Shown: positions 11,238-34,800 of the stretch, piece after piece
How the letters are laid out: every line of letters starts with the position of its first letter
Numbering within the stretch: position 1 is the first letter of the stretch
NCBI RefSeq assembly: GCF_000190375.1
Contig: NZ_AEWG01000155.1
Location: forward strand, 1 to 64,000
Direction: 5' to 3'
Length of the DNA stretch: 64,000 bases
From: Rubrivivax benzoatilyticus JA2 = ATCC BAA-35
Lineage (GTDB): Bacteria; Pseudomonadota; Gammaproteobacteria; Burkholderiales; Burkholderiaceae_C
Position numbers and translations under genes: made by a program
Notes under the pieces: model-generated
What the model was told of the DNA's origin: nothing
Database searches by the model: none
Seen by the model: only the letters and a program-made list of their open reading frames with translations

Positions 11238-12305
11238 ATGATCGGAAACCGACTCAAGAGGGCGCGAGAGGCTCTCGGGTTGTCACTGCGCGAGCTGGAA
11301 GCGGCCATCCAGGGGCAAGTCTCGGCGCAGGCCATCGGCAAGTACGAACGCGACGAGATGATGCCCAGCTCCACGATCCTGCTTGCGTTGGCCAAGGCCC
11401 TGCGCGTCTCGCCCGAGTACCTGCTGAGCGAGCGTGAGATCGAGCTGACGGGCGTGGACTTTCGCAAGGCGCCGCATGCCGGCATCAAGGAGGAGCGCGC
11501 CGTGCGGGCGTCCGTGCTGGATCAGGTCGAGCGCTACCTGGAACTGGAAGAGCTGCTGCCCGGCGTGGAGCAGCCCTGGGCGGCCCTTGAAGACGAGGCG
11601 TTCGACATCGCACGCGTCGAAGACGCGGAACAGGCCGCGGACGCCTTGCGCCGCCTGTGGAAGCTGGGCATCGATCCGATCCCCTTCATGGCCGAACTGC
11701 TGGAAGACAAGGGCGTCAAGGTGATCGCCCTGGACCTGCCGGAGAACGTGTCGGGCTCCAAGGCGTTCGTGCAGCGACCCGATCGCCAGGACGTCCCCGT
11801 CATCGTGGTGAATCAGGGCCACAACGGCGAGCGGCAGCGGTTCACGCTGGCCCACGAACTGGCGCATCTGGTGCTGCGCTTCAGCGGCCTCAGCGACGCC
11901 GAGCAGGAGAAAGCCGCCGACCGCTTTGCCGGCGCGTTCCTGATGGCCCGCGACATGGTGCTCAGGCTGCTGGGCCCGCACCGGACGTCGATCTCGATCG
12001 GCGAGCTGGCCGAGCTGAAGAAGCTGTTCAAGGTCAGCATCGCGTCACTGGCGGTGCGATGTGCCCAACTGGGGATCATCACCAAGGCGGTCTACGGCCG
12101 CCTGTGGGCCCAGATCCGGGATCTGGGCTGGAACAGCCAGGCCTCCGGTGAGCCGGGCATGCTGATGCCCGAAGTGCCGCTGCGCATGGAGCGCCTGTGT
12201 CTGCGCGCCGTCGCCGAAGGCGCCATCTCGGAGGCTCGGGCGGCCGAACTGCTGCGCATCAGCGTGCGCGAACTGGACCGCCGGCTGGCGGGGCAGCCTG
12301 GCTGA
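11238..12305 (+). CDS. XRE-HTH / ImmA-IrrE metallopeptidase fusion protein
   Basis: A 355-residue protein with an N-terminal XRE-type helix-turn-helix (about 1-65: MIGNRLKRAREALGLSLRELE, QAIGKYERDEMMPSSTILLALAKAL) and a C-terminal peptidase M78/COG2856 domain with zinc motif HELAH at about residue 208 and a downstream conserved acid (EQEKAADRFAGAFLM). Such proteins bind DNA and are thought to be inactivated, or to cleave a partner, on stress. The gene is followed after 6 bp by a PIN-domain gene, a pairing known from predicted toxin-antitoxin-like cassettes. A perfect inverted repeat overlaps its promoter. It acts in the cytoplasm. Confidence 0.9.
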   Translation: MIGNRLKRAREALGLSLRELEAAIQGQVSAQAIGKYERDEMMPSSTILLALAKALRVSPEYLLSEREIELTGVDFRKAPHAGIKEERAVRASVLDQVERYLELEELLPGVEQPWAALEDEAFDIARVEDAEQAADALRRLWKLGIDPIPFMAELLEDKGVKVIALDLPENVSGSKAFVQRPDRQDVPVIVVNQGHNGERQRFTLAHELAHLVLRFSGLSDAEQEKAADRFAGAFLMARDMVLRLLGPHRTSISIGELAELKKLFKVSIASLAVRCAQLGIITKAVYGRLWAQIRDLGWNSQASGEPGMLMPEVPLRMERLCLRAVAEGAISEARAAELLRISVRELDRRLAGQPG

Positions 12306-12311
12306 CCGACC

Positions 12312-12806
12312 ATGATCATCCTGGTCTCGGACACATCCGTCCTGATCGACCTGGAGCGGGGCGGGCTCCTGGAGCCTGCCTTCTCCTGCGACCTGACGAT
12401 GGTGGTGCCGGACCTTCTGTTTGCCCGCGAACTGGAGGCAGAGAACGGCCCCTTGCTGCGCACGCTCGGCCTGGGCGTCGTGGCGCTGAACCCCGACGAA
12501 GTCGACTTCGCACAGCAGCTTCGCAAGCTGCGCCCCGGTCTCTCGCTGCCGGACTGCTTCGCCCTCAGCTGCGCCCGACGCCAGGGCCACGCCCTGGTTT
12601 CGGGCGACAAGCTGCTGCGGGCCGAGGCCCAGGCGCGCCACTGCGTCGTCTACGGCTTGCTGTGGGTGCTGGATCAGATGGAAGCATCAGGCAAGGTCGG
12701 GGCCGCGACGCTCCATGAGGGCCTTTCGCGGATCTGGAATCACCCGCGGCGGCGGCTGCCCAAGGCCGAGGTGATGGAGCGACTTCAGCGCTGGTCGTGT
12801 GGCTGA
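12312..12806 (+). CDS. PIN-like domain protein (putative RNase partner)
   Basis: A 164-residue PIN-like nuclease domain. Acidic residues at the expected places are Asp in VSDTSVLIDLERGG (strand 1), Glu in FARELEAEN (helix 2), Asp in SLPDCFALSCARRQG and Asp in LVSGDKLLRAEA. PIN proteins are Mg-dependent endoribonucleases and frequent toxins. The start lies 6 bp after the XRE-ImmA gene, so the two are probably translated from one mRNA, and the upstream protein would be the control or antidote partner. Its RNA target is unknown. Confidence 0.75.
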   Translation: MIILVSDTSVLIDLERGGLLEPAFSCDLTMVVPDLLFARELEAENGPLLRTLGLGVVALNPDEVDFAQQLRKLRPGLSLPDCFALSCARRQGHALVSGDKLLRAEAQARHCVVYGLLWVLDQMEASGKVGAATLHEGLSRIWNHPRRRLPKAEVMERLQRWSCG

Positions 12807-12890: not shown

Positions 12891-13916
12891 TCACCCGGCC
12901 CGGATCCCCGGCGTTCCGTCAGCAGCCTCCCGGGACGCGACCGCAAGCCCGACAGCCTCCTCGACGATCCGGTGTGCCGGCATCGCGAGGAGCCGCCGGT
13001 CCTCGGGTCTTTGCCTGCAAGCCTTCATCTGCTCGCACAGCGTGGCTCTCGCCCGCTTGAAGTGACGCGCGACCGACGCGGCGGGACACAGCGACACGTC
13101 CACGGCCAGGCAAGCCACCAGCGCCCGGCCGCGTACGCCGATCGAGCCCGGCACGTCGGCGAGGCGCTCCACGCCCCGAAGGCCGAGCCTGGCGAGAAGC
13201 CAGCGCTCCAGGATGCGCAAGGCTCCGTCGATCCCGTCTGCCCCGGCAGCGGCCACGAGCGCTGCCGCGGCCCCGCGCACCTGGCGCGACATCCGCGGCA
13301 GCGGGCCGACCGTTCCGACGGCGAGTGCCAAGCCGCGGGACAACTCCCACTGGCGCATCTCCATGGCGTACGGTCTTCCGGCCAGCCAAGCACGCAACGC
13401 CGCGCGCGCGGCCGGCACCTCGTCACCGAACAACGCGAGCTGCGGTCTCGCGTCGAAGCCCATCGCCCGCCGCAAGCCCAGGGTCGTTCGCAGCGCCGAG
13501 TGCGGGTAGTAGGCGGGAGCGGTGCAAAGGCCCAGCGCGACCGGACGCCACGCGAGCATGCGTAGCTCGGTGCGCAAGGCGTCGAGGGAGCCGACCCGGT
13601 GGGCCCGGAAAGGACCGGCAAAGACCGGCCCGCGCACCGACATGACGTCCCGCACCCACCGCGCCACGATGCTGGAGACGGCACGGGCCACGGCGCCCGG
13701 CGAGTCGCCTGCCGGCAGCTTCGACAGCACGTGGATCTCGGTCGGGGCCAGCAGATAGTCGACCAGCACCCGGTCTCGCTGCGCATGAGCGTCGAGGAGC
13801 CGGCACCGGATGCGCTCAGCCAGCGCCCCGCCAGCGATCAGGTCGTGCCCCGCCACGGCCTGCCAGCAGATATGCCAGGTCGTCGTGGACGCGGAGACAG
13901 GAGCCGGGGGGTCCAT
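12891..13916 (-). CDS. Degenerate REP-associated (Y1/HUH-type) transposase relative
   Basis: A 341-residue protein whose first half follows the RAYT/TnpA_REP layout: WHICWQAVAGHDLI at the place of the first strand, VDYLLAPTEIHVLSKLPAGDSPGAVARAVSSIVARW at the place of YVLMPNHVHLL, then GPVFAGPFRAHRV and the helix with WRPVALGLCTAPAYYPHSALR. The HUH motif is broken (EIHVL instead of HVHLL), and no catalytic Tyr is evident at the usual place. The second half (about 250-320) looks like a DnaA-type HTH (VACLAVDVSLCPAASVARHFKRARATL). It is probably non-transposing and may be a DNA-binding relic or a domesticated protein. It is divergent from the lasso precursor gene. Family assignment is from motif layout only. 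Confidence 0.55.
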   Translation of the reverse strand: MDPPAPVSASTTTWHICWQAVAGHDLIAGGALAERIRCRLLDAHAQRDRVLVDYLLAPTEIHVLSKLPAGDSPGAVARAVSSIVARWVRDVMSVRGPVFAGPFRAHRVGSLDALRTELRMLAWRPVALGLCTAPAYYPHSALRTTLGLRRAMGFDARPQLALFGDEVPAARAALRAWLAGRPYAMEMRQWELSRGLALAVGTVGPLPRMSRQVRGAAAALVAAAGADGIDGALRILERWLLARLGLRGVERLADVPGSIGVRGRALVACLAVDVSLCPAASVARHFKRARATLCEQMKACRQRPEDRRLLAMPAHRIVEEAVGLAVASREAADGTPGIRAG

Positions 13917-14236
13917 GACCGCTTGACGATCCAGCGGCCCAGGACCTCACCCCCAACATCGAAGCAGCGCGCCCGGCGTTCGGTCGCATGGCGCCGGCAG
14001 GCGTTCCGGACCAGGCCGCCACCGAACGGCAGCAGCGTCGCAGCGGAAACGCCGCCCGCCGGTCCCCGGCGAGCTTGCCCCAAGAGAGGGTGCGCCGCGG
14101 CCTTCGGCGAGTCGACCGAACGCTTCACGGCAGGCCGAAATTTCATTGTCCTGACATCGAAGGCCGTCCTACCTTGCCCCGGCCGGAAGCGATACGCCAA
14201 CGGCAGCCCCCGTCATCCAACCTCAAGGAGTGCGTC
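13917..14236 (+). promoter_or_regulatory. 320-bp non-coding region with likely lasso-operon promoter
   Basis: No convincing gene lies here. A weak sigma-70-like promoter can be drawn: -35 TTGTCC (14146-14151), 18-bp spacer, -10 TACCTT (14170-14175), about 60 bp before the precursor ATG. The local sequence GAAATTTCATTGTCC is the only AT-rich patch. A Shine-Dalgarno AAGGAG (14225-14230) lies 6 nt before the precursor start. The left part would also hold the promoter of the divergent transposase relative. Confidence 0.4.
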
Positions 14237-14356
14237 ATGGACGAAGAGACCGAACTGGACATCGTCGACCTGGGCGATGCGAAGGACACGACCAAGGGCA
14301 TCCTGCTGCCGGGCAGCGAGGACAACGTGACGATGCCCGGCCGGCAGATCGCCTGA
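14237..14356 (+). CDS. Lasso peptide precursor
   Basis: A 39-codon gene. The leader is MDEETELDIVDLGDAKDTTK and the predicted core is GILLPGSEDNVTMPGRQIA (19 residues, DNA from 14297). The Thr at position -2 (T-K before Gly1) is the hallmark needed by lasso leader peptidases, and a core starting with Gly and holding an acid at position 7-9 is needed for the macrolactam. Here Glu8 or Asp9 can form the isopeptide bond with Gly1, giving an 8- or 9-residue ring and a 10- or 11-residue tail with Met13, Arg16 and Gln17 as possible plugs. The leader is acidic with a hydrophobic LDIVDLG stretch for recognition-element binding. The start is fixed by AAGGAG 6 nt upstream. B and C genes follow on the same strand. 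The S-E-D-N stretch recalls rubrivinodin from Rubrivivax as I remember it, but the core differs. Confidence 0.9.
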   Translation: MDEETELDIVDLGDAKDTTKGILLPGSEDNVTMPGRQIA

Positions 14357-14441
14357 GCCGAAGCCGCCACCCCGGCGCAAAGCTGCTTGCTTCGCCAGCG
14401 AGCTTGGCGCCGGGCCCTGGTCCGTCATGGCAAGGGCACGC

Positions 14442-15161
14442 ATGAACAGCGCCCTCTGTCTTGCGCCGCACGTTCGCGCCTGCGCCTGCGAGGGGCAGGT
14501 CATCCTGCTGGACTTGCGGCGCAGTCGCTACCTGGGCGTGCCCGGTGCGCGCTTCGCGCGTCTGGCGCCCTTCGTCCGAGGTTGGCCACAGGCCACCGAG
14601 ACGCCGCAGGCCGCGACGCTGACGCCGTCCGAGGTCGAGGCACTGGCTGCCCCGCTGTTGCGGCACGGCCTGGTGACCGCGGGCGCGGCTCCGCCGGTTG
14701 CGCGGCAGCCGCTGCCGGAGGCGAACGAGTCGCTGAACGCCGACGAACTGATCACGGCGGCGCGGTTGGCACCGGCCCGCGCCCTTCGCATCGCCAGCGC
14801 CTGCACCTCGGCGGCGCTGCGCCTGCGCTGGCAATCGCTCGACACCATCGCCGCTCGCCTGGTCGCTCGGCGCCGCCGACCCGCGGCGGAACGCGCCCGA
14901 CCGGGCGAGCCCGCGCAGTTGCGTGAGGCGGTTGCCGCCTACCTTCGTCTTCGGCCCCTGCTGCTCACGGCGCAGGACCGTTGCCTGCACGACTCTCTGT
15001 CGCTGGCCGGTTTCCTGGCGTCCGAGGGCTGGTTTCCGCATTGGGTCATCGGCGTGACCGCACGCCCCTTCGCCGCCCATGCCTGGGTACAGAGTGACGG
15101 CCTGGTGCTGAGCGACCTGCACGAGAACGTGCGCCGCTACACCCCCATCCTGGTCGCATGA
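14442..15161 (+). CDS. Lasso peptide maturation protein B (B1-B2 fusion)
   Basis: A 239-residue fused protein. Residues about 1-85 resemble a PqqD-like recognition element that binds the leader (MNSALCLAPHVRACACEGQ, VILLDLRRSRYLGVPG). Residues about 130-239 are the transglutaminase-fold peptidase that removes the leader: catalytic Cys181 in DRCLHDSLSLAGFL, His213 in PFAAHAWVQ and Asp225 in VLSDLHENV. In many systems B1 and B2 are separate; proteobacterial clusters often have this fusion. The ATG at 14442 is preferred over the in-frame ATG at 14427 because AAGGG (14432-14436) lies 5 nt upstream. It follows the precursor by 85 bp and precedes the cyclase by 21 bp. Confidence 0.9.
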   Translation: MNSALCLAPHVRACACEGQVILLDLRRSRYLGVPGARFARLAPFVRGWPQATETPQAATLTPSEVEALAAPLLRHGLVTAGAAPPVARQPLPEANESLNADELITAARLAPARALRIASACTSAALRLRWQSLDTIAARLVARRRRPAAERARPGEPAQLREAVAAYLRLRPLLLTAQDRCLHDSLSLAGFLASEGWFPHWVIGVTARPFAAHAWVQSDGLVLSDLHENVRRYTPILVA

Positions 15162-15182
15162 CCGCGTCGCGGAGCAAGCGCC

Positions 15183-17000
15183 TTGTTCCGCTACCTCGCG
15201 CTGGTCTGGGACGACGATGCGGCCGCATCACGCGCGGCCGCGCGCCGTCTGGCACAGCATCTGGACAGCAAGCGCGCGTGGCAGACCGCGCTGCGAACGA
15301 ACGGGCTGTCGGTGTTCGTCACCGGGGCAGATGCGTCGGGCAACGGGGTGTACACACTGCCATCCGAACGGGGTGTGGTCCTCGGCCGGCTGTTCCGCAG
15401 AGGCGTCGACGAGAAAGCCCTCGTCCATCACGGACCGCTCGAACCGGAAGACGCCGAAGGTGTCCTGCAGCGCGGAAGCCATGGCTTGGTCACCGACTGG
15501 TGGGGGCGCTACGTCGCTTTTCTGAAAGCGGCGGACGGCACCACGACCGTCCTGCGTGACCCGGCCGGCACCCTGCCCTGCTTCGCGCTGGAACACGAGG
15601 GCGTGCAGATCGTGTTCTCCTGGCTGGAGGACCTCCTCGCCCTGCCCGGGCTGCCGCTGCCGCCGATCGCCTGGGAGCGGCTGCCTGCGCATCTCCAGTT
15701 CGGCGAACTCGGCAACCAGCTCACGTTGCTGGATGGCGTCGAACGTCTGCTCCCCGGGGAGGCGCTCCACATCGGCCGCGCAGGCCGGCGAAGCGAACGC
15801 GTCTGGAACGCTCTGAGCTTCGCAGGCTCGCCACTCGACGACGACCCGGCGCGGCTGGCACCGCTCGTTCGCGACACCGTCCGCCACTGCGCACGGTCCT
15901 GGGCCGAGGGGCAGCACCGCATCCTGCTGCGCCTGTCAGGCGGCCTCGACTCCTCGATCCTGGCCTGCAGCCTGGCCTGCGGCGGCACACCGGCCGACAT
16001 CCTGTGCGTGAACTACCACTCGCCGGGCGCCGACACCGACGAGCGGCGCTACGCGCGCCAGGCCGCGCGGCATGCCGGACTCGAGCTGATCGAGTGCGAG
16101 CGCGACGACGCCTACCGGCTCGAACGGGTCTTGAACGTGGCGCTGACGCCCTCGCCCGCCACCTACGTCGGCCGCATGGCCGCAGCCGCGCTTGACGCCG
16201 ATCTGAGCCAGCGCCATCAGGCGCCTTCGCTGTTCACCGGGGCAGGCGGCGACCAGCTGTTCTTCGAGCTTCGCACCTGGTGGCCGGCGGCCGACTTCCT
16301 GTCACTGCGCGGCGCCGGCCCAGGGCTGACGCACGCGATGCTGGACGCCGCGCGCCTGGCCAGGCTGTCCGTCTGGCAGACGGCGTCGCTCGCGCTCCGC
16401 GTGCGCATGGGGCGCGCTGCGGGCACGGACGCCTTGTCCTGGCCACTCGCGCTGATGGCCGGCGACGCGCTGGAGGCCGCTGCGGCCGCGCGCTACACGC
16501 ACCCTCTGCTGAGCACGGCCACCACGCTGCCGATCGGCAAGCTCAACCACCTGCGCATGCTGCTGCACCCGATCGGCTACTACGACCCTTACGAACGCGA
16601 GCGCGCGCCGGACGTGGTCAACCCGCTGCTGTCGCAGCCGCTGATCGAGCTTTGCCTGCGGCTGCCGACGTACCGGCTCACGCAGGGCGGGCGGGGCCGT
16701 GCGCTGGTCCGCCAGGCCTTCGCATGCGACCTGCCGCCGGAAATCGCCGCCAGGCGATCCAAAGGCAGCATCGAGGACCACCTGAGAACCGTGCTCGCGC
16801 GCAACCTCCGGTGGGTGCGCGAAGTGCTGCTCGACGGCGAACTCGTCGCACACGGCCTGCTCGACCGCCAGAGGGTCGAAGCCGCGCTGTCTGACAGGCC
16901 GCAGGCGGCCACCGTGCACGTGACCGAGATCCACGGCCACGTCGCCGTCGAAGCCTGGCTGCGACGCTGGCGCAGCATCGCAAACAGACATGCCGCGTGA
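15183..17000 (+). CDS. Lasso peptide cyclase C (asparagine synthetase-like)
   Basis: A 605-residue member of the asparagine synthetase B family. The N-terminal half is the glutaminase-like fold but begins MFRYLALVW with no catalytic Cys2, as in McjC-type cyclases. The C-terminal half has the ATP-pyrophosphatase loop LRLSGGLDSSILA (about residues 250-260). It adenylates the side chain of the ring acid and joins it to Gly1 of the core. The start is a TTG: an in-frame stop lies at 15159-15161 and no ATG or GTG lies between, while GGAG (15171-15174) sits 8 nt before TTG. Its stop codon ends at the base next to the stop of the convergent isopeptidase gene. Confidence 0.9.
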   Translation: MFRYLALVWDDDAAASRAAARRLAQHLDSKRAWQTALRTNGLSVFVTGADASGNGVYTLPSERGVVLGRLFRRGVDEKALVHHGPLEPEDAEGVLQRGSHGLVTDWWGRYVAFLKAADGTTTVLRDPAGTLPCFALEHEGVQIVFSWLEDLLALPGLPLPPIAWERLPAHLQFGELGNQLTLLDGVERLLPGEALHIGRAGRRSERVWNALSFAGSPLDDDPARLAPLVRDTVRHCARSWAEGQHRILLRLSGGLDSSILACSLACGGTPADILCVNYHSPGADTDERRYARQAARHAGLELIECERDDAYRLERVLNVALTPSPATYVGRMAAAALDADLSQRHQAPSLFTGAGGDQLFFELRTWWPAADFLSLRGAGPGLTHAMLDAARLARLSVWQTASLALRVRMGRAAGTDALSWPLALMAGDALEAAAAARYTHPLLSTATTLPIGKLNHLRMLLHPIGYYDPYERERAPDVVNPLLSQPLIELCLRLPTYRLTQGGRGRALVRQAFACDLPPEIAARRSKGSIEDHLRTVLARNLRWVREVLLDGELVAHGLLDRQRVEAALSDRPQAATVHVTEIHGHVAVEAWLRRWRSIANRHAA

Positions 17001-19391
17001 CTACGGCCCCGCCTGCACCCGCTCGCAGCGCGGGCGGCGCTCGTCGGCGCCGCGCAGCTCGGCCATCTGGCGCCAGCGCGTGTACTGCTGCTCCAGCGTC
17101 TGCGCCGTCTCGCCCTTCAGCACCGGGTCGTGCCGTTCCTCGCCGAGCAGCCAGAAGCGGTACCAGTCCACGTTGCCTTGCAGCGAAATCATGCGTTCGC
17201 TGGGCCGCGACAGCGAGTGCGTGCCGTCGGGGATGACGACCATCTCGGCCGGCTTGTACTGGCGGCGCAGCAGCGCATAGATGTCCCAGTTGTTCAGCAC
17301 CCAGGGCCCGTAGGTCTCGATGCGCAGCGCGGCGCGCACGCAGTCGGTGTGCAGCGCCGGGTCGTTGCGCACCCAGTCGCGCAGCGTGTTGCCGAAGGCG
17401 GAGCCGCCGTTGATCGCCTCCTTGCGCGTCAGCATGTTGTCGCCGGCGCCGTAGGTCACGGCGACCGAGAACAGCGTGTTGGCATCCCCGTCCAGCAAGG
17501 TCGCCGCACGGATCCGCGTGTCGGTGAAGGTCAGCAGGTTCAGCGCCCGCTCGCCGGTCGCGCTCCAGCCCATCAGGCCGATGCGCTCGGCGTCGACCAG
17601 CCCTTCGCCCACCAGCGCGTCGATTGCGCCGCGCACCCCGTCGGCAAAGGCGTCGACACCGCCGCGCTCGTTCGTCGGGCGGCCGGTGCTGGGCCCCAGC
17701 GGCAGCGCCAGCACCAGCAAACCCTCGCGGAGGAAGGCCCGGCCCGCGAAGCCGCTGCTGACGCCGTCGGCGATGTTCGCGCCATCCAGGTAGAAGCGGT
17801 CGGTGGCGAAGCCGTAGGTCTGGATGACGAGCGGATAGCGCTTTCCTGCCACAAACCCCGCGGGGAGCAGCAGGCCACCATCCCATTGGCGGCCCTTGGC
17901 ATCTCGCCACGTGTAGGGCTTGGCGACGCCCCAGGTCTCGGCCGAATAGCCGGGGTTCAGGTGGGTCAGCCGCACGCTCTGGCCGGCCGCGGTAGTCGCC
18001 CAGACGTCGGGCGGCTGATTCAAGGCCTGGTCCAGGCGCAGCGACACCCCCTGCAAACCGCCGGCGGCTGCGGGCGCGCGGTCGAGCTCCTTCCAGCGCC
18101 CGTCGGGCGTGCGCTCGAACCAGCGGCGTTGCGTGCCGTCGATCGCCACGAAGGCATCGTGCGACCCCGGCACCGGATAGGCCGCGTCCAGACGCCCTTG
18201 CAGGCTGGCGATGACTTCCAGGCGCCCGGTGTCGGGCCAGTACTCGACCAGATGCGACCCGCTGCCCCGGCCGGCAGACAAGGGCAGATGCGTGCCGGCG
18301 ATCACGACGGACTTGCCGCCGCGCTGCCACAGCCGGTCCGAGCGCGTCTGCCCGACACCCGGGTAGGCGTCGTCCGGTGCGTCGACCACGGCCTGCTCGT
18401 GCCCGTCCGCGAGGCGATACGCCACCAGCCGCCGGGCCACGTAGCTCCTGGGGCGGGAGAAGTAGCCGATCGGGTCCATGCCCAGCGACGGCCCGGCCAG
18501 CCGGGCCAGTTCGCCCACCAGCGGGTACTCGTCCGCCCACGCCAGCTGCCGCTCCGGCTCGTAGCGCGGCAGCAGCGCCCAGCGGCCGTCGGGCGAAATG
18601 CTCACGCCCGGCGGCTGGCTGCTGCTCTCGGGGAAGACCGGCCCCAACGGCCGCGCCTGCCGCCCGCCGTCGCGCGAGGCCACGAAGTAGCGGTACTGCC
18701 GGTCCTGCGCGCGCATGTCGCCCTGCCCGAACTTGATCGACCAGAACGACTGGTTGCCGACGACGACGCTGCGCGCGCCGGTGGGCAACGGCGGCTTCGG
18801 GATCTGGGCGACGTACACCACCTGGCGCAGGTCGTCCGAGACGGCAAAAGACACGATCGGCAAGGTCTCGCTCGTCAGTGCGGCCAGACGGCCGGTGCCG
18901 ACGTCGACGCGATACACCTGGTCCAGGCCGTCGTCGACGCGGCCGCGGAACACCAGCGTCTCGGGCCCGACCCAGCGCACGTCCCGGATCGCCGGGTCGA
19001 GGTACGAAGAGTCGCGGCGGGCGGCGATCGTCAGCACGGTGCGCGGCTCTGCGGGCCGCTGCGCCTGCAGGCGTTGCGGGTCCAGGTCCAGCAGCAGGAT
19101 GCGAAAGAGGTTGCGGTCGGTCGCCATTTCGGCCGTGCGCGTGACGATGAACGCACGGCGGCCGTCCGGCGAAACCTGCGTCTGCAGCGCGTCGGCATCG
19201 CTGTTGCGCGGCTGCTCGATGCGGGTGAACTCGACGAGGTCCTGAACCGTGGGCCCGATCCTTTCCGCGGAACGGCAGGCGCTGACCACGGCCATGCCGA
19301 ACATGAGGATCAGAACCCAGCGCAGCAGCCCGGTGACCAGGCACTCGCCCGGACGCTCCAGCCAGCGGCGCGCAAGAGGCATGAATTGCAT
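17001..19391 (-). CDS. S9-family peptidase, predicted lasso peptide isopeptidase
   Basis: A 796-residue prolyl-oligopeptidase-like protein: a beta-propeller N-terminal part with TolB/DPP-like repeats (QVSPDGRRAFIV, SISPDGRWALLP) and a C-terminal alpha/beta-hydrolase with nucleophile Ser610 in GWSATGE and His725 in PDGTHSL. In proteobacterial lasso clusters this family cleaves the isopeptide bond and linearises the peptide. The N-terminus has a hydrophobic stretch ending VVSAC (Cys39), which fits a lipobox, so a lipoprotein facing the periplasm is possible, although the n-region is long. It is convergent to the cyclase gene with no gap and heads toward the same side as the TonB receptor set (102 bp from it). 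Confidence 0.85.
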   Translation of the reverse strand: MQFMPLARRWLERPGECLVTGLLRWVLILMFGMAVVSACRSAERIGPTVQDLVEFTRIEQPRNSDADALQTQVSPDGRRAFIVTRTAEMATDRNLFRILLLDLDPQRLQAQRPAEPRTVLTIAARRDSSYLDPAIRDVRWVGPETLVFRGRVDDGLDQVYRVDVGTGRLAALTSETLPIVSFAVSDDLRQVVYVAQIPKPPLPTGARSVVVGNQSFWSIKFGQGDMRAQDRQYRYFVASRDGGRQARPLGPVFPESSSQPPGVSISPDGRWALLPRYEPERQLAWADEYPLVGELARLAGPSLGMDPIGYFSRPRSYVARRLVAYRLADGHEQAVVDAPDDAYPGVGQTRSDRLWQRGGKSVVIAGTHLPLSAGRGSGSHLVEYWPDTGRLEVIASLQGRLDAAYPVPGSHDAFVAIDGTQRRWFERTPDGRWKELDRAPAAAGGLQGVSLRLDQALNQPPDVWATTAAGQSVRLTHLNPGYSAETWGVAKPYTWRDAKGRQWDGGLLLPAGFVAGKRYPLVIQTYGFATDRFYLDGANIADGVSSGFAGRAFLREGLLVLALPLGPSTGRPTNERGGVDAFADGVRGAIDALVGEGLVDAERIGLMGWSATGERALNLLTFTDTRIRAATLLDGDANTLFSVAVTYGAGDNMLTRKEAINGGSAFGNTLRDWVRNDPALHTDCVRAALRIETYGPWVLNNWDIYALLRRQYKPAEMVVIPDGTHSLSRPSERMISLQGNVDWYRFWLLGEERHDPVLKGETAQTLEQQYTRWRQMAELRGADERRPRCERVQAGP

Positions 19392-19492
19392 TCGGATATT
19401 TCCTATCGAAGACGGCCAGGCCCGGGCGGCCGCCGTTGCGGCGCCACCAGAGGCTGGGAGTGAAGAGGGAAGAAAGCGGGCGCGCCGCGGCG

Positions 19493-22387
19493 CTACCAGG
19501 CCACCGAGAGCCGGGCGCTGGCATAGCGCCCACGCCAGTCGGCCTGGGTGGGGTCGTAGAACGGCGCCGTCTCGACGAACTCCGGCGCCCGATCGGTCAC
19601 GTTGACGATGCCTAGCGACAGGGTGGCGCCGTTGGCCATCGCGCCGGAGACCCAGCCCAGCCGGACCAGGTCGAGACTGGCGTTCAGGTCGTGGGTCCAG
19701 GTGTCGCCCAGCCGCCGCTGGCTGGTGCCCGCGTCCTTGTAGGCGCCGAGGTAGCGGCTGGTGAGGCCGACGCCCCAGCCGCCGCGGCTGAACGCCGCCG
19801 AAAGCCGCCCCTTCCAGGCCGGTGCCCAGAAGTCGTAGAAGCGCCGCCCCAGGCGGTCATCGGCCGGCGCCGCGGGCGACAGGACCACGCGGTACTCGCG
19901 GGCGCGTGTGGCGCTGGCGGCCAGCGTCCAGGTGCCGTCCAGCGCCCGCCAGGCGTGCGCGGCCTCGACGTCGACGCCGGAGGTGTCGACACCGCCGTAG
20001 TTGACCTCGGCCCAGGCCACGCGCGTGATCGGCCCGGGCACGCCGCCGGTGGACGGGCCGCGCGTCACGATGCCGGGGAACAGGCTCTCGTTGTCCACCA
20101 GCACCTGCGGATACACCAGGCCGATCAACCCGTCGATGCGCACGCGCCAGGCCGTCACGCCCAGCCGCGTGCCCAGCGTTCCGTCGGGCTCCCACACCGC
20201 CCCGAGCGTCTGCGCCTTGCCGCGTTCGGGCCCCAGGGCCGGATTGGTGCTGCGGACCACCTCGCCGCCGGCCACCGGCTCGCCACCGCGTGCCGGGTCC
20301 ACCAGCCCGAAGGCTTCCGAAGGAAAGCTCTGGTCGGGCACGTTCGTCTGCAGCAGCGTCGGCGGCTTGAACGACGTGGCCGTCGACGCGCGCAGCAGCA
20401 GCGTGCGTGACGGCCGCACTTCGAGCCCCGCCTGGTAGGTACCCGCCGAGCCGAAGTCGCTGTAGCGGTCGCGGCGCGCGGCCACCGTCAGCGCCGCCAG
20501 ATCCCAGCCCTGCCCGACCCCGGGCGCCGCGCGCAGCAGCGGCGCACGCAACTCGGCATACGCCGCGCGCTGCGTGCGTTCGGCCTCTATGGGCTGCGCC
20601 CCCGGGATCGTCGTGTCGTAGCGGTCGCGACCCGTCTCGACCCCGGCGATCGCCTCCAGCGGCCCCGCCGGCAGCCGCAGCAACGGCCCGCGCACGAAGC
20701 CACCCAACTGGTCGTGCCGGCCGTGGTTGGTGCGAAGAGTCTCCGGCCAGATGCGGCGCAGCAGCTCGTCGCTGGCGGCGCGGCCGGTGGTGAACGGGTC
20801 GAGCGCGGTGTCGGCCGAGGCACTGGCCAGCGCCGCCGCGCGTGCGGCGGGATCGGCGCTGACGCCCGAGGTGCGGCTGTCGCCGCTGTCGCGCGAGGTG
20901 GAGCCCGTGGCCTCGAAGTCCCAGCCGCCCGGCAAGTCACCGCGCAGGCCGACCAGGGCCCGCGTGTAGCGGCTGCGGCGCTCCGAGCTCTGCGCGCCGT
21001 TCTCGGCCCCCAGCGCGCCCGTCACGCGCACGTCCACGCCGAACGGGTTGTAGTGGTTGCTCGCCGGCACCAGGACGTTGTTGAGCATCAGCGCCGCTTC
21101 GTCGGACCAGAGCCGGTCTTCGGTGCGCGTCAGCTCGCCGAAGAGCGACCAGCCGCCGGCGAACACCCGCTCGCCGCTGGCGTGCAGGCCCAGCGTCTCC
21201 GACCCGTGGATCAGCGTGTAGCCCAGGCCCGTGGCCTGCGCGCTGCAGAGGTTGGCCACGCCGGCGGACGGCACGAAGTCGGCCACCGTCAACGGCTGGC
21301 CGGCGGGCAGCGACGGAATGCCGGCAACGCTGGAACCCAGGCCCGGCAACGGGCTGCCGTCGGCGCTGCTGACGGTGCCCGGCACGCAGGCGCGTGTGCG
21401 CTGGTCGGTGCCGCCGTAGCGCCGGTAGTCGGCGTCGCGGAAGAACGAACGCTCGGCCATCGTCAGCGGCGAGCGCCTGGAGTACGAGCCCAGCACCAGG
21501 AACGAGCTGTTCTCGCCATGGCCGCCGCCGGCCAGCGACAGGCTGCCGTCGCGGGTGCCTTGGGCAGAGCCCAGGCGCGCGTCCAGCGCCATGCCGTCGA
21601 TCGACTTCTTCAGGATCACGTTGACGACGCCGGCCAGCGCGTCGCCGCCGTACACGGCCGAAGAGCCGACCGGCAGCACCTCGATGCGCTCCACCGCCGA
21701 CAGCGGGATCAGGTTGAGGTTGAAGTAGTTGCCCGAGGACATGCCCACGGCCTGCACGCGGCGGCCGTTGATCAGCGTGAGCGTGGAGCCCAGCGGCAGG
21801 CCGCGCAGCTGCACGGTGCCCTGGCCGCCCGTGGCGCCGAAAGAGCCCTCGCCTGCCGCCACCGAGACCTCGCTGAGGCTGCTGAGAAAGCGCTCCAGCG
21901 TCGGCTGCCCGCTGTTCTGGATGTCTTTGGCCGTGTACGTGTTGACCGGCACCGGGCCTTCGGTGGCGATGCGCTTGAGCCGCGACCCGGTGACCTCGAT
22001 CTTCTCGGCCGACGCCGGCAGCCCGCCCGCCGGGGCCGCCGCCGGTTTGACCACGATGGCGCCGTCCGGCATGACCTCGGCCGCCAGGCCCGAGCCTTCG
22101 AGGGCACGCGTGATCGCCTCGACGGCCGACAAACGGCCCGATACGGCGCGCGCGGTCTTGCCGTCGACGACGCCCGGATCGAAAAGCACCGACGCGCCCG
22201 TCTGCCGCGCGATGGACCGCAGCGCGTCGGCCAGCGCCTGCGCCGGCTGTTCGACCACGTGCCGCGACGGCGCGGGCGGCTCGGCGGCAGCCGCCACGCC
22301 GTGCGCCGCGCACACGAGCAGGGCCAGGGCCTGGGCAGCCAGGGGCGGGCGGCGGCGGGCCGCCATGGCGGGTAGCTGGAATCGCAT
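19493..22387 (-). CDS. TonB-dependent receptor with STN signalling domain
   Basis: A 964-residue outer-membrane transporter. A signal peptide (ALALLVCAAHGVAAAA) is followed by a secretin/TonB short N-terminal (STN) domain (about 45-105, QALADALRSIARQTGASVLFDPG). Next come a TonB box region (KIEVTGSRLKR), a plug (about 140-245: GQGTVQLRGLPLGSTLTLINGRRV, VGSSAVYGGDALAGVVNVILKK) and a 22-strand barrel ending RLSVAW. The STN domain marks it as a signal-transducing receptor working with the adjacent FecR and ECF sigma factor. Place and type fit import of the lasso peptide made by the cluster. The start has AAGG about 7 nt upstream. 78 bp separate it from fecR. Confidence 0.92.
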   Translation of the reverse strand: MRFQLPAMAARRRPPLAAQALALLVCAAHGVAAAAEPPAPSRHVVEQPAQALADALRSIARQTGASVLFDPGVVDGKTARAVSGRLSAVEAITRALEGSGLAAEVMPDGAIVVKPAAAPAGGLPASAEKIEVTGSRLKRIATEGPVPVNTYTAKDIQNSGQPTLERFLSSLSEVSVAAGEGSFGATGGQGTVQLRGLPLGSTLTLINGRRVQAVGMSSGNYFNLNLIPLSAVERIEVLPVGSSAVYGGDALAGVVNVILKKSIDGMALDARLGSAQGTRDGSLSLAGGGHGENSSFLVLGSYSRRSPLTMAERSFFRDADYRRYGGTDQRTRACVPGTVSSADGSPLPGLGSSVAGIPSLPAGQPLTVADFVPSAGVANLCSAQATGLGYTLIHGSETLGLHASGERVFAGGWSLFGELTRTEDRLWSDEAALMLNNVLVPASNHYNPFGVDVRVTGALGAENGAQSSERRSRYTRALVGLRGDLPGGWDFEATGSTSRDSGDSRTSGVSADPAARAAALASASADTALDPFTTGRAASDELLRRIWPETLRTNHGRHDQLGGFVRGPLLRLPAGPLEAIAGVETGRDRYDTTIPGAQPIEAERTQRAAYAELRAPLLRAAPGVGQGWDLAALTVAARRDRYSDFGSAGTYQAGLEVRPSRTLLLRASTATSFKPPTLLQTNVPDQSFPSEAFGLVDPARGGEPVAGGEVVRSTNPALGPERGKAQTLGAVWEPDGTLGTRLGVTAWRVRIDGLIGLVYPQVLVDNESLFPGIVTRGPSTGGVPGPITRVAWAEVNYGGVDTSGVDVEAAHAWRALDGTWTLAASATRAREYRVVLSPAAPADDRLGRRFYDFWAPAWKGRLSAAFSRGGWGVGLTSRYLGAYKDAGTSQRRLGDTWTHDLNASLDLVRLGWVSGAMANGATLSLGIVNVTDRAPEFVETAPFYDPTQADWRGRYASARLSVAW

Positions 22388-22465
22388 CTCGTGACCTTCT
22401 GGCGTTGCCGTTGGGGGGACAACCAGATGACGAGAAAGTCCAATACTGGACTCAACGTGATTTCG

Positions 22466-23524
22466 CTACTGAGCTTTGGACAACTCCACTCGTCCCGCCT
22501 GCTCCTGCACCCGCAGGCCGTGCAAAACCGCCACTGCATGGGCGAAGCCGGCGGAGTCCCCGGTGCGATAGACGCCGCTGACACGCAAACCGGCCAGGCC
22601 CGTCGGCTGCAGCAGCACGATCGGCGTTCGGCTGTAGCGGTTCATCTCGGCCACCGCGTCGGCAAGAGAGCTGTCGTCGAACACGGCCTCGCTGTGCTTC
22701 CAGGCGACGACCTGGTCCATATTCGGCCGGTCGCGCTCGGCCTTGGCGCGGTGGTCGGGCCCGGCCGCCGCCGCGGAAAGCCGCACACGGTCACCCGCCA
22801 CCATCGGCACCGCGGCCGGCGGCGCCAGCCCGCCGGCACCGGCCACCGGCTGCAGCGCCACCTGGCCTTCGATCAGCGTCACGGCCAGCGTGTCCTGTCC
22901 ACCCGGCTGCGGCCCGGCGAAGCGCACCGCGAACACCGTGCCCAGCGCCACCACTTCGCTGCCGCCCGCACGCACGACGAAGGGCCGCCGCGCGTCCTTC
23001 GCCACTTCGAACAAGGCCTCGCCGTTCTGGAGGGCCACCTCCCGGCGCTGCGGGCCCAGCGCGACACGCACGCGCGTATCGGTGTTCAGCGTCATGCGCG
23101 AGCCGTCGTCCAGCACCACGAGCTGCTGTTCGCCGACGCCGGTGAAGTAGAGCCCGCGGTCACGCCAGTGCTGGTAGCCCACGCCGCCGGCCAGCACGGC
23201 CACCCCCAACGCCGCCGCCGACGCCCAACGCACGGGGCCCAGGCGCCAGCGGCCGCCGCCGCGCGAACGTTCTGCCGAAGCCGCAAAGGCGCTGGCCAGC
23301 GTGACGCCGGGCACGCTCTGCCAGGTGTCGGTGCAACGCTCGAACGCTTCGCGATGGGCGGCGGAGCGCTGCTGCCAGGCCAGGCATTCCAGCTCCATCT
23401 GCCGGCTGCGCTGCGGCCCATGCAGCCGCGCCACCCAGACAGCGGCCTCGGCGGCGATCTCGGGCGTCACCCGGGGCGGGGAGCCCGGTGTTCCGTGGCC
23501 CGCGGCGGCGGGCGGCTGACCCAT
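22466..23524 (-). CDS. FecR-family anti-sigma/sigma regulator
   Basis: A 352-residue inner-membrane protein. The cytoplasmic N-terminal part has the DUF4880-like helix (ITPEIAAEAAVWVARL-like, AAHREAFERCTDTWQ), a single TM segment lies at about residues 100-117 (WASAAALGVAVLAGGVGY), and the periplasmic FecR domain follows (VVLDDGSRMTLNTDTRVRVAL, GEALFEVAKDARRPFVV). It would carry the signal from the STN domain of the receptor to the sigma factor. The ATG at 23524 lies 2 bp after the sigma stop codon; the longer in-frame ORF to 23695 is only overlap with the sigma gene. Confidence 0.92.
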   Translation of the reverse strand: MGQPPAAAGHGTPGSPPRVTPEIAAEAAVWVARLHGPQRSRQMELECLAWQQRSAAHREAFERCTDTWQSVPGVTLASAFAASAERSRGGGRWRLGPVRWASAAALGVAVLAGGVGYQHWRDRGLYFTGVGEQQLVVLDDGSRMTLNTDTRVRVALGPQRREVALQNGEALFEVAKDARRPFVVRAGGSEVVALGTVFAVRFAGPQPGGQDTLAVTLIEGQVALQPVAGAGGLAPPAAVPMVAGDRVRLSAAAAGPDHRAKAERDRPNMDQVVAWKHSEAVFDDSSLADAVAEMNRYSRTPIVLLQPTGLAGLRVSGVYRTGDSAGFAHAVAVLHGLRVQEQAGRVELSKAQ

Positions 23525-23526
23525 GT

Positions 23527-24006
23527 TTACCAACCCTCCATCCAGGCCGTGAGCAGCAGCGTGGCCTTGGCGATGTGCTTCTCCACCGCGCTGACGCTCA
23601 CGCCGTGCTGCGTGGCGATCTGCTGGTAGCTCATGCCGTCCACACGGTTGGCCAGGAAGATAACGCGCGTCTTGTCGTTCAGGCGCCCCAGGCAAACGCC
23701 GAGGCGCGCCACGCGTTCACGCGACAGCAGCACCGCCTCTGCGCTGGGCGTGCGGTCGACGAGCACCACGTCGTCCAGCGCCACCTCTTCGCCCCGCGCC
23801 AGGCGCGAGCGGTGGGCGTCGATGGACAGGTTGAGCGCCACGCGCATCAGGAACGCCTCGGGCTCGTCGACCGCCTGCTCGCGCCGGTAACATTCCAGCC
23901 GCACCCAGGCTTCCTGCACCAGGTCGTCGGCGTCCTGCTCCGTGCGGCCACGGCGCATCAAGGCCGATCTGACGCGGGAGATGACGCCTTGCCAGTTCTT
24001 CACCAT
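23527..24006 (-). CDS. ECF sigma factor (FecI-like)
   Basis: A 159-residue sigma-70 family factor of the extracytoplasmic-function type. Region 2 includes EQDADDLVQEAWVRLECY and FLMRVALNLSIDAHR; region 4 includes LNDKTRVIFLANRVDGMSYQQIATQHGVSVSAVEKHIAKA. It would direct RNA polymerase to the receptor operon and possibly to the lasso genes. ATG at 24006 gives the normal FecI start (MVKNWQGVI); the ORF extends 63 codons further but that part is only the antisense shadow of the neighbour. Order sigma-fecR-receptor on one strand is the classical cell-surface signalling layout. Confidence 0.92.
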   Translation of the reverse strand: MVKNWQGVISRVRSALMRRGRTEQDADDLVQEAWVRLECYRREQAVDEPEAFLMRVALNLSIDAHRSRLARGEEVALDDVVLVDRTPSAEAVLLSRERVARLGVCLGRLNDKTRVIFLANRVDGMSYQQIATQHGVSVSAVEKHIAKATLLLTAWMEGW

Positions 24007-24037: not shown

Positions 24038-24838
24038 TCAGCCGCCGAGCGCAACACCCCTGAAGGGCGAGACCTCCAGAAGGGGGCGCTGCGCGCGGGT
24101 GGCCGTGGACCGGGCGGCGTCGAACCGGCGTTGCGCGCGCGCCAGCGCCGTTTGCACGAAGGACGGCGCTGCGCTGGGGTCGGCAACACCACCATGCCGA
24201 GCGAGCGCCCTGCCGACGCTCAGATGGAGCGAAGTTGCACGAGCATCCCCCCGAAGGACCTCCCTCCGAAGGGTGGGTGCCAGCGACCACAACAGCCGTC
24301 CCTGGTCCAGGGCGAGGCGCCAGTCCGTCACGAGCGCCGGGTAGCGGGCGGCCCAGCGGCTGGACTCGAACGCGGAGATGGACTGTTGGGCGGCCTGGCT
24401 GGAGCCGGCTTGCAGGATGGCGACCAGGTGGTTCTTCACCGGCGCGCGGTCGCGTGGCTGCACTTGTCGGACGCTGCGGTCCAGGAGTGTGGCGAACGAC
24501 GGCAGCGGTGAGGTACCGGGGAACTGCGTCCGCAACTCCTCACCGAAGGCCGTCGGGTTGTCGGTGACGGCGAAGCGGATGCGTTCGAGGCCGCGGTGGC
24601 AGATGTCAGCCAGGATCTGGCGGCAGGCCTGTCGCCCGGACTCGGGTGCGAGCCAGATACCAAGGATCTCGGATCCATCACGACGGCTGCCGATCCACCA
24701 ATGCACCGCGCCGCAGCGGTCACCACCGTAAAGCAGATGGTGGACGGGCGCGCAGTGGACATAGGCAGCGACATAGCTGCGGCACAGCGTCAAGCCCGCT
24801 CGCGCACCTTCATCACGTCGTCCGTTGCTCCAGTTCAC
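24038..24838 (-). pseudogene. IS256-family (mutator) transposase remnant
   Basis: An open frame of 266 codons resembles the middle of IS256-type transposases: EILGIWLAPESGRQACRQILADICHRGLERIRFAVTDNPTAF corresponds to the region holding the second catalytic Asp (AVTD). Then come VKNHLVAILQAGSSQAAQQSISAFESSRWAARYPALVTDWR and a degraded LWSLAPTLRREV, where IS256 enzymes have FPPEIRR. The first catalytic Asp region and the TTNAIESLN motif with the Glu are missing, so it cannot be active. No terminal inverted repeats were found. It lies 31 bp upstream of the ECF sigma gene on the same strand and marks the border between the lasso cluster and the defence island. Confidence 0.6.
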
Positions 24839-25440: not shown

Positions 25441-25641
25441 ATGGCAGCGAGCAAGACCGCCACATTGACGCTGCGCATCGAGCCCGAGATCAAGCAGGCA
25501 CTGCAGCGTGCCGCCGAACTGGAGCACCGGTCGATCGCGAACATGATCGAGGTGCTCATCCGCGATCACTGCAAAGCCAAGGGCATCGCCACGGACGCCT
25601 CGACTAACAACAAACCTGCGGCCAAGGGAGCCACTTCGTGA
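25441..25641 (+). CDS. Ribbon-helix-helix DNA-binding protein
   Basis: A 66-residue RHH/CopG-like protein: the strand TATLTLRIEPEIKQALQRAAELEHRSIANMIEVLIRDHCKAKG has the typical beta-strand, helix, Ser-Ile-Ala-N turn, helix pattern. The last 15 residues are a loose tail. Its stop codon overlaps the GTG start of the DUF499 gene (GTGA), so the two are translationally coupled. It is probably the local repressor of the defence operon, the first gene of which it is. Confidence 0.85.
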   Translation: MAASKTATLTLRIEPEIKQALQRAAELEHRSIANMIEVLIRDHCKAKGIATDASTNNKPAAKGATS

Positions 25642-28600
25642 TCAAGACCGTCAGACAGGCATGCCGCTTCAACGCGGTGATCCACGACTACCGGATGAGC
25701 CAGGGCATCGAGAACCTAGCCGAGCTGATCCGGGACGAAGGGGATGGGCGGGAGTTCTTCTCGCGCAACTTCGTCACCCACGGGATGGCTCAGCTATTCC
25801 GTGAAGGCTTGCTGCGCCTATCGGGAAAGTCGGATCAGGCGGTCTTCGAGCTGACCCAGGCCATGGGCGGCGGTAAGACGCACATGATGATCGCGCTGGG
25901 GCTGCTGGCACGCCACCCGCACCTGCGCCAGGAGGTGCTGCCCGCCGATCTGAAGGACCGAATCGAAATCGGACAGGCCCGCATTGCCGCCTTCAACGGC
26001 CGCAACACCCCTGACAACTACATCTGGGGTGACATCGCGACGCAGCTGGGCAGATCCGAAGCCATCAAGCCCTACTGGGCCAACGGACCGAGATCCGTCG
26101 ACCAGCAGAAGTGGAAGGAGATCATCGGCGAGGAGCCCACCCTGATCCTTCTGGACGAGCTGCCGCCCTATCTTGATAACGCCAGCACCCAGGTCTTCGG
26201 GCAGGGAACGCTTGCCAACATGGTGGTGTTCTCTCTGGCCAGCTTGATGAGCGCGGCACTGGAGCTGCCCAACTGCTGCATCGTCGTCGCGAACCTTTCG
26301 GGCAGCTACCAGGCGCAAACCAAGGCACTGGCCGACGCGATCTCCAACCTCCAGCAGGAGACTCGCCGGCAAGCGATGACCATCACCCCGGTACAGCTGG
26401 CCGGCAACGAGATCTACGAGATCCTCAAGACGCGCCTCATCGACGAGATGCCAAGCGAGCGCGTCATCGCCGACGTGGCCGAGGAGTACGCGCAGCAGGT
26501 CAAGAAGGCCGAGGACGCCGGCTACGTCGTCGCGGCCAGCATCGAGCAGCTCGCAGAGCAGGTGCGCGAGACCTATCCTTTCCACCCGTCGTTCAAGCAC
26601 TTGGTCGCCTTGTTCAAGGAGAACGAGGGCTTCCGGCAGACCCGCGGCCTGATGCAGTTCACCGCACGCCTGCTGAAGAGCGTGGCGCTGCGCGAGAACG
26701 ACGACGTCCACCTCATCGGGGCCCAGCACCTTGCGCTCAACGACGATCAGGTACGTGACGAGATCGAGCGCATCGCCCCCAAGTTGCTGCCGGCTGTCAC
26801 GCGGGACATCGCCGACAAAGGCAATGCCATCGCCGAGACTATCGACGCCGAGCTTGATACCGATGCATCGCGCCAGGTGATGACGCTGCTGCTGGCTTCT
26901 TCGCTGTCGCGCGCAGTGGGCGGGCGTATCGGTCTGTCGGAGAGCGAGGTCATCGAGTTCCTCGCCGCGCCCGGCCGCAAGCCCGACGAGTTCCTGCAAG
27001 CGCTGCAGCGGCTGCGCGAGCTGGCCTGGTACCTGCACCGCGAAGATCAGCGTCTCTTCGTCAAGGAGACCGAGAACCTCTCGCGTCAGATCGAGCGCAA
27101 CGCCAAGGAGGTGCCGCAGCCCAAGATCGACCAAGCGCTGATCAACCGGCTAACCGGCATCCTGCAGCCGGAGAGACGCCAGGCGTACCAGGACGTGCAG
27201 GTGCTGCCTCGCCTCGACGAGATTCGCCTGAGCGGCCCGCGCACCCTCATCGTCATCAAGCCGGACGGCAAGGTCCCACCCAGCGAACTCCAGAACTTTT
27301 TCGACTACCAGCAGGAGAAGAACAACCTGTTGGTGTTGACGGGGCAGGACAGCCACATGGCTGACGCCGTCGAGGAACGATTGCGCGAGCTGTACGCCAT
27401 TGAGCAGATCCACAAGCGCTTGAAGGCGGGAGACACCCTGTTCGAGGAGGCGCGAGACCGCCTCGAGGAGGCCGAAGATCGGTTCTCCAAAGCGCTCTCC
27501 GCCGCCTACAACCGGGTCTACTTCCCGAGCACCGATCCCATCGACGGGCGGCACTTCCTGGCCAACGTCACCATCGACAACGGTCTCAAGCTCGGCAAGG
27601 GCGAGCAGTCCGCCGAGGCGCAGATCGAAACGCTGCTTGCCAGCCCGCGCGCCAACTACAAGTTGGCCGCCAACCTCACCGACAGCTTCGGCGAGTATTT
27701 CGCCATGGCAGAAGAGGTTCTGTGGCCCTCGGGCAAGGACAACCGCCGCACGCCCTGGAAGGACGTGGTGGCACGCGCCAAAAGCAACCCCGACTGGCCC
27801 TGGATGCCCGGGTCAGGTGGTATGGACACGCTGAAGGCCGAGGCCCTGAAGCAAGGGCGGTGGCGCCTGGGCGAAGACGGGTATGTCGAGAAGGGCCCGT
27901 TCCCGAAGGACAAGACCACGGTCAACGTCTTGGTCGTCGGCAGCCAGCCGGACACGGGCGCCACCATCCTGAGCCTCACGCCGCGTCACGCGGGCGAAAG
28001 CCCGGTGGTGGTCTACGCCACGCGCCCCGAGGGGCTGGTCAAGGGGCAATCCATCGACGATCTCGACAGCTTCACCACGACGGAAGGCACGCTGTACTTC
28101 CTGGCCCGCGACACCACCGGCAACTACGAAACCGGCAAGCCCGTTCGCTGGACTGCCGAGTTGAAGATCCGCCATCAGGTGGAGCCGGCCGCCGACAAGC
28201 GCCGCGTCACGCTGGCGTGCACGCCCAAGGCCACGACGCTGAACTACACGCTGGACGGCTCCAACCCGCGCGACGGCCTGCCTTACGAGGGGCCATTCGA
28301 GATCGGCGCCGCCGCGGCCCGACTACTCGTCTACGCCTGCGCTGGTGAGGCCAACAAGACGGCCGACTTCCAGATCCCAGCCAGCGGCGACAAGACCGTC
28401 CAGATCAACGACACCAAGCCCGTCAAGCTGCAGCCCAAGCGCATCGGACTGGACACCACCGACCGCGTGTTTGGCGTCATCAACCGCTTTCGCGACCAGC
28501 CCGGCACGCTCTTCAAGGGCGTGCGCATCGAGATCGGCGAAGGCGAGAAGACCGTGACCGTTCGCTTCCAGGAGCGCGAGGTCACTGCCAACGTGATCGA

Positions 28601-28763: not shown

Positions 28764-28767
28764 ACCC

Positions 28768-31382: not shown

Positions 31383-31391
31383 AGCCGCCGC

Positions 31392-34367: not shown

Positions 34368-34379
34368 GGGAGAACGAGA

Positions 34380-34799: not shown

Positions 34800-34800
34800 G

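Follow-up and report, generated by a model that had tools for sequence, protein, structure and literature searches.

A predicted class II lasso peptide cluster of the isopeptidase-containing family in Rubrivivax benzoatilyticus JA2, with a transposase-derived gene proposed as its regulator

We analyzed a window of 64,000 nucleotides from Rubrivivax benzoatilyticus JA2 (positions 1 to 64,000 of the forward strand of contig NZ_AEWG01000155.1, assembly GCF_000190375.1), in which positions 12891 to 24006 carry the gene cluster studied here. Judged from its genes, the locus is very probably a new member of the isopeptidase-containing proteobacterial lasso family, with one class II lasso peptide predicted as its product. 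The precursor gene (A), the leader protease gene (B), the cyclase gene (C), the isopeptidase gene (E) and genes for a TonB-dependent receptor, a FecR-like anti-sigma factor and an extracytoplasmic function (ECF) sigma factor are all present, with no interruption. A preliminary description of this DNA had placed a complete gene set of this type at 14237 to 24006. All the genes it named were confirmed by Pfam and NCBIfam profiles, fold and conserved residues, the receptor, FecR and sigma genes adjoin the others as described, and 24006 is the start of the sigma gene. The left boundary at 14237 was too narrow, the conserved locus beginning at 12891. Beyond that description, the family is already catalogued, the layout is that of a related locus, L047, and a conserved divergent gene of transposase descent belongs to the cluster together with its control region. 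The features are as follows, RAYT standing for REP (repetitive extragenic palindromic)-associated tyrosine transposase and RRE for the recognition element of ribosomally synthesized and post-translationally modified peptides (RiPPs).

12891..13916, minus strand: RAYT-lineage protein of 341 amino acids, candidate regulator, divergent from the precursor (neighbor conservation, co-occurrence, alignments, hhalign)
13917..14236, plus strand: divergent control region, with CCGAAC at 14022 and 14116, a CTACCTT box at 14169 and an AAGGAG ribosome-binding site at 14225, ahead of the precursor ATG
14237..14356, plus strand: lasso precursor gene A, 20-residue leader and 19-residue core (core at 14297-14353)
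14427..15161, plus strand: B, RRE fused to a transglutaminase-like leader protease (Pfam, NCBIfam, invariant triad, AlphaFold model)
15183..17000, plus strand: C, asparagine-synthetase-like macrolactam cyclase with a TTG start (Pfam, NCBIfam, SGGLDSS motif)
17001..19391, minus strand: E, lasso peptide isopeptidase of the S9 family (invariant Ser610 and His725, fold match)
19493..22387, minus strand: TonB-dependent receptor with an STN signaling domain (Pfam)
22466..23524, minus strand: FecR-like anti-sigma factor, start at 23524 (Pfam)
23527..24006, minus strand: FecI-like ECF sigma factor, start at 24006 (Pfam, NCBIfam)
24038..24838, minus strand: IS256/mutator transposase-derived open frame, upstream of and co-directional with the sigma gene; cluster membership uncertain

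Gene content and gene order, like the conserved active-site residues and co-occurrences given below, were observed directly; C and the isopeptidase gene are convergent and abut at 17000/17001.

The precursor consists of the leader MDEETELDIVDLGDAKDTTK followed by the core GILLPGSEDNVTMPGRQIA, with a threonine at position -2. The 39-residue precursor of the preliminary description thus held up, matching both Pfam DUF5974 (5e-11) and the NCBIfam benenodin family (1.5e-12), each above its cut-off, and the leader motif LGDAKxxTxG is found in 20/20 aligned precursors. The core had been called unfamiliar and continues to be so: its segment GILLPGSED was not found in the searched literature, a search that left subscription papers and lasso databases outside, the 62-peptide table of the review PMC12427821 does not list GILLPGSEDNVTMPGRQIA (nor does it list rubrivinodin), and the core differs from those of all 24 other precursors identified in this analysis. 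The peptide is one new core in a known, catalogued family. Profile searches with the precursor across the order (399 genomes) and the class (369 genomes) returned only the window's own precursor, and this subtype may therefore be confined to the bacterial family, although sampling is thin.

The B protein matches the Transglut_core3 and lasso B2 profiles of Pfam and NCBIfam, and Cys186, His218 and Asp230 are invariant in the 21 aligned B proteins (21/24 rows; L028 was excluded because of a stop, and L031 and L033 were set aside untested). The proposed fusion of an RRE to this protease was borne out by the model and the fold match only. Pfam detects the protease domain alone, with an N-terminal RRE recognized in 0/21 members at E 0.1. 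The AlphaFold model (mean predicted local distance difference test [pLDDT] score of 88) presents an N terminus of strands followed by helices, and five of its six best Foldseek matches are to lasso B1 chains or to RRE chains of other RiPPs. The top match is 5v1v, TbiB1 with leader peptide (probability 1.00, E 0.015), and a further match is 6jx3 (probability 0.89); none reaches E 0.001 or better. The asparagine-synthetase-like cyclase was identified by Pfam and NCBIfam, and it contains SGGLDSS.

For the isopeptidase, the first eight Protein Data Bank (PDB) matches of the model (pLDDT 79) are chains of SpI-IsoP and AtxE2. Ser610 and His725 are invariant in all 17 rows of the alignment, from which L032 was left out owing to a stop near the match start, and Asp703 and Glu692 are likewise invariant. 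The S9 isopeptidase assignment made earlier stands on fold, serine and histidine, and falters on the acid and on the profile score. The residue aligned with position 610 of the AtxE2 chain, which we take to be the acid of the triad, varies among these proteins, and the model falls below pLDDT 50 at 696-698 and 700-706. The available excerpt of PMC9266682 gives the triad of these enzymes as Ser-His-Glu/Asp.

Several points weigh against this reading of the locus. The isopeptidase scores 119 bits where the NCBIfam cut-off is 400. The residue at the AtxE2 610 position is Trp here and Glu in 6/17 rows, and because of this variation and the low confidence of the model in that part, the catalytic acid is unplaced. 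An ABC (ATP-binding cassette) exporter between C and the isopeptidase gene is absent from the window, and a genome-wide exporter search gave 67 matches, nearly all to the ATPase domain only. Finally, the lasso product is a predicted one.

The missing exporter is best considered in the context of the relatives. An ABC transporter follows C in 15 of the 21 clusters scored, out of 24 rows in the cyclase tree; L027, L029 and L050 were left unscored, and the 2460, 1295 and 915 nucleotides examined there contain no ABC signature. The tree needs at least four changes of exporter presence, and the window is nested among exporter-bearing clusters (branch support 98/97 and 100/100), which makes loss of the exporter in its lineage the most likely course. 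A weak match (25%) over the membrane part of an exporter is found at the C24 locus of the same genome. We also considered whether an exporter together with an isopeptidase would be a novelty. Twelve related clusters combine an ABC transporter of ∼530 to 670 residues with an isopeptidase (L019, L020, L022, L024, L026, L028, L030, L032, L034, L035, L048 and L049), and such clusters appear to be common in this bacterial family rather than an isolated case. The rubrinodin cluster already shows this combination, as the accessible part of PMC9266682 describes, and the idea was rejected on this precedent.

At E 1e-30 or better, the cyclase has a match in 14/299 genomes of the bacterial family, own genome included, and at 1e-60 in 17/399 genomes of a larger, partly overlapping draw. 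Within the genus, 5/81 genomes carry the cyclase, again with our own included and two of them under 90% complete. The nearest cyclases are those of Schlegelella koreensis (L019, 70% identity) and Rubrivivax sp. MAG52 (L020, 62%). Both of these uncharacterized loci keep all seven genes in identical order at 53 to 85% protein identity, as well as the RAYT-lineage gene, and carry the cores GILQPGSEENQSLPGRV and GLVQPGIEDNPDLPGRVA; unlike the window, they have an ABC exporter encoded between the cyclase and isopeptidase genes. Given the recurrence of the cyclase in 14/299 genomes and the preserved order of seven genes in L019 and L020, the cluster is not a chance assembly.

Among characterized systems, the closest relative is apparently the rubrivinodin cluster: locus L047 of genome G400 carries the core GAPSLINSEDNPAFPQRV, which we take to be rubrivinodin. 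Like the window, L047 has the order A-B-C followed by isopeptidase, receptor, FecR and sigma genes, no ABC exporter, a divergent RAYT-lineage gene and CCGAAC sites, whereas its cyclase is only 49 to 50% identical and its core is one residue longer before E-D-N, placing the acid at Glu9 rather than Glu8. The rubrivinodin producer is abbreviated R. gelatinosus in the excerpted text of PMC7549694. The rubrinodin cluster of Xiu et al. (2022), compared by description only, shares the isopeptidase, TonB-dependent receptor and FecI/FecR genes but has an ABC transporter that the window does not (available portions of PMC9266682 and PMC10926693). The astexin, sphingopyxin and benenodin clusters of Alphaproteobacteria also share A, B, C, the isopeptidase, the TonB-dependent receptor and the sigma/anti-sigma pair. 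They differ in the gene that precedes the precursor, a GntR-like regulator according to the accessible part of PMC9266682, whereas the window and L047 have the RAYT-lineage gene there. This GntR-like regulator, usual in such clusters but not defining, does not occupy that place here.

The core offers two neighboring acids, Glu8 and Asp9, and the earlier view that ring size is undecided was correct. Sequence comparisons slightly favor Glu8, which MAFFT places in an invariant Glu column (20/20), with a ring shorter by one residue; the register of (S/A)E(D/E)N gives the same column, and the loop pattern E-D/E-N-x-x-x-P-x-R can be aligned with the L047 core only by using Glu8. Closure at Asp9, giving a ring of nine residues instead of eight, is quite possible, if slightly doubtful. 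Position 9 is acidic in all 25 precursors (21/21 in the main set plus four found later), and since every precursor without an acid at position 8 has Glu at position 9, a nine-residue ring is probably the family norm. Against this, Asp at position 9 occurs only in the window, L020 and L024, and Glu is the predicted ring acid wherever the assignment is unambiguous. Glu8 followed by Asp or Glu at position 9 is found in the window, L019, L020 and L024; in L035, L052 and L082, too, Glu8 is followed by Glu9, and there the relatives point, by eye, to Glu9. Both ring sizes can come from one cluster, as the available excerpt of PMC13352647 reports for the caulosegnins. The calculated mass of the core after loss of water ([M+H]+ 1950.011, [M+2H]2+ 975.509) cannot by itself discriminate between an eight- and a nine-residue ring, and the doubled acid makes this core a clean test of how the cyclase chooses ring size.

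Upstream of the precursor and divergent from it, the next gene is the open reading frame at 12891-13916. Its relatives adjoin the precursor in 23/26 clusters (21 distinct ones including the window, plus L082 and L083; L053 repeats L021 and was counted once), and the three exceptions, L024, L027 and L036, belong to genomes that carry a copy elsewhere. At E 1e-20 or better, with up to seven candidates scored per genome, the gene was found in 14/14 cyclase-bearing genomes and in 0/285 others of the 299 family genomes, own genome included (Fisher 2.6e-24, a value that ignores relatedness and comes from one bacterial family). Identity to the L020 protein is 76%, compared with 62% for the cyclase and 53% for B; the gene is more conserved in this comparison than FecR, receptor, isopeptidase, cyclase and B, and less than sigma. 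A passenger, kept beside the cluster by chance or shared ancestry with no functional part in it, is therefore unlikely on the genome counts, on the identity to L020 and on the non-adjacent copies in the L024, L027 and L036 genomes. Transposase genes are nevertheless common neighbors, the association was measured within one bacterial family, and an unlinked copy in genome G143 (L081) shows that gene and cluster are separable. Compared with L019, moreover, the protein is 70% identical, equal to the cyclase (70%) and below the isopeptidase (75%) and the receptor (74%), which also favors the passenger reading.

Two further copies were noted. L081 (G143:C5) has no lasso gene within the 14 kb examined, the lasso cluster of that genome being on another contig. 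In our own genome, a partial second copy (G000:C64:24441-24803, L084) covers the C-terminal third with one stop, and the stretch examined around it has no lasso genes.

By its sequence, the protein descends from REP-associated tyrosine transposases. NCBIfam NF047646 matches it at 19.6 bits (E 6.5e-4), below the 80-bit cut-off, and matches 14/20 aligned lasso-linked members with an E value of at most 0.01 (lowest 2.1e-8), whereas Pfam Y1_Tnp gives a weak match in 2/20. Profile-profile comparison with hhalign against three groups of RAYT-like proteins returned probabilities of 93.6, 80.8 and 95.5, with a matching motif register in which HxH becomes ExH and NPVRAG becomes RPVALG; a profile search of the PDB gave nothing convincing. 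A quick tree separates the 20 lasso-linked proteins from 27 reference rows by one branch (SH-aLRT branch support 99, with a long-branch warning). The lasso-linked alignment of 20 rows does not contain L034 (a near-copy of L048), L053 (which overlaps L021) or the L081-L083 copies; the reference set was reduced from 30 loci to 27, L106 and L109 being fragments and L108 too short.

The differences from RAYTs lie in the nuclease motif. The first histidine of the HUH (His-hydrophobic-His) motif is replaced by Glu, giving Glu-x-His in 20/20 lasso-linked proteins, while His-x-His is present in 26/27 reference rows, of which 13/27 score above the family cut-off. The reading strand of the reference rows was picked with a loose HUH-like pattern, which could favor motif-bearing rows. 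No tyrosine column is invariant or reaches 90% conservation in the 20 lasso-linked rows; the richest column (15/20) is located before the HUH position, and the RAYT tyrosine cannot be placed in a single column with certainty. Since cleavage by the TnpA-REP class needs both the HUH motif and a catalytic tyrosine, as stated in the accessible part of PMC8266576, the protein would be unable to cut as a RAYT does. Its C terminus looks helix-turn-helix-like by eye. No statement tying lasso clusters to a disarmed RAYT-lineage gene was found among the papers listed by the literature searches, and the available portions of three of these with both lasso and transposase/IS200 terms (PMC4235733, PMC9062649 and PMC11006600) draw no link.

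Conservation extends to the control region that the two divergent genes share. A proximal CCGAAC lies near -122, 103 to 139 nucleotides ahead of the scored precursor start, in 25/26 clusters, where 0.03 per cluster would be expected by chance in the 65 positions scanned (for L047, the start used is a Met that precedes the likely one). A second, distal CCGAAC is found further up in 22/26, and a YTAnnK box follows the proximal site by 53 or 54 nucleotides in 24/25; the L031 cluster has neither CCGAAC site. These counts are not independent, because the clusters are related, but the adjacent RAYT-lineage proteins share only 44 to 76% identity with that of the window. CCGAAC also occurs upstream of the sigma operon in several loci, at varying places and sometimes within coding sequence, and was not counted as evidence there. 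A sigma-70 promoter scan gave nothing on the precursor side. We also considered a hairpin between A and B; it is stable in the window, yet 18/200 shuffles fold as well, and it was rejected as not distinguished. The corresponding figures for the relatives are 4/200 (L019) and 10/200 (L020).

We propose that the RAYT-lineage protein is most likely a repurposed DNA-binding regulator of the precursor operon. In its full form, the proposal is that a RAYT-lineage HUH transposase lost its nuclease motif once, retained a helix-turn-helix-like C-terminal segment and became the dedicated transcriptional regulator of an entire family of lasso clusters in betaproteobacteria, acting on the paired CCGAAC sites of the divergent promoter region, taking the place that GntR has in alphaproteobacterial clusters and serving in trans the clusters without their own copy; to this we give a chance just short of even. 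DNA binding by the protein and its recognition of CCGAAC, as opposed to recognition by another factor, are putative. CCGAAC could instead serve the ECF sigma factor of the cluster or a housekeeping factor, with the RAYT-lineage protein acting otherwise, for example by binding RNA or single-stranded DNA. We regard this as possible but doubtful. The site is short, occurring 57 times in the window when both strands are counted, TnpA-REP of Escherichia coli works on single-stranded REP hairpins (available excerpt of PMC8266576), and L024, L027 and L036 retain CCGAAC without an adjacent RAYT-lineage gene. Those three genomes, however, carry the gene in trans, and the lasso lineage has kept its helix-turn-helix-like segment while losing the HUH motif. 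If a disarmed transposase does control this lasso family, it would give a handle on when clusters of open function are switched on and would be a bacterial case of an HUH transposase turned gene regulator.

The following steps, with leader recognition, cleavage, cyclization, isopeptide hydrolysis and receptor/FecR/sigma signaling deduced from the named gene families, and uptake and DNA binding likewise inferred, can be envisaged. The RAYT-lineage protein would bind the shared upstream region at the CCGAAC sites and control the precursor operon. The RRE of B would bind the leader and B would cleave after Lys20, with threonine at -2, and C would then close a ring between the amine of Gly1 and Glu8 (or Asp9), with the tail threaded through it. 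Release from the cell would follow, here without the ABC exporter of the two nearest relatives. Outside, the peptide would be recognized by the TonB-dependent receptor, which may signal via FecR to the ECF sigma factor, and after uptake it would be linearized by the isopeptidase.

Two observations concern the isopeptidase gene. The N terminus of its product (from 19391 downwards) is hydrophobic with a lipobox-like VVSAC, relatives having Ala-rich signal-like ends, and this suggests an exported or membrane-anchored enzyme. At L027 (G223:C122), the receptor gene follows C and an isopeptidase gene was not found on the 16-kb contig.

The frame at 24038-24838, the first before sigma, covers only positions 182-316 of the 379 of the IS256/mutator profile. 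Similar frames lie upstream of sigma in L019, L020, L034 and L048 (34 to 50% identity), and this frame may be kept for function; the codon-position signal is modest. On the other side of the cluster, 11238-12806 holds an XRE/ImmA-IrrE-like gene (M78 peptidase; PADLOC RmrA) followed by an open reading frame that is PIN-like by eye, with no Pfam or PADLOC match, and it looks like a toxin-antitoxin or defense pair. We considered it as part of the cluster because toxin-antitoxin genes are reported from the rubrinodin cluster (accessible text of PMC10926693), and rejected it because it has no match at E 1e-4 in 25 related loci. Just past the lasso locus, a large anti-phage island at 25638-40266 contains DUF499, DUF3780, a Schlafen/AlbA-like protein, a DUF1156 methyltransferase, candidate PDC-M28B and PDC-M28C proteins and a PLD-helicase.

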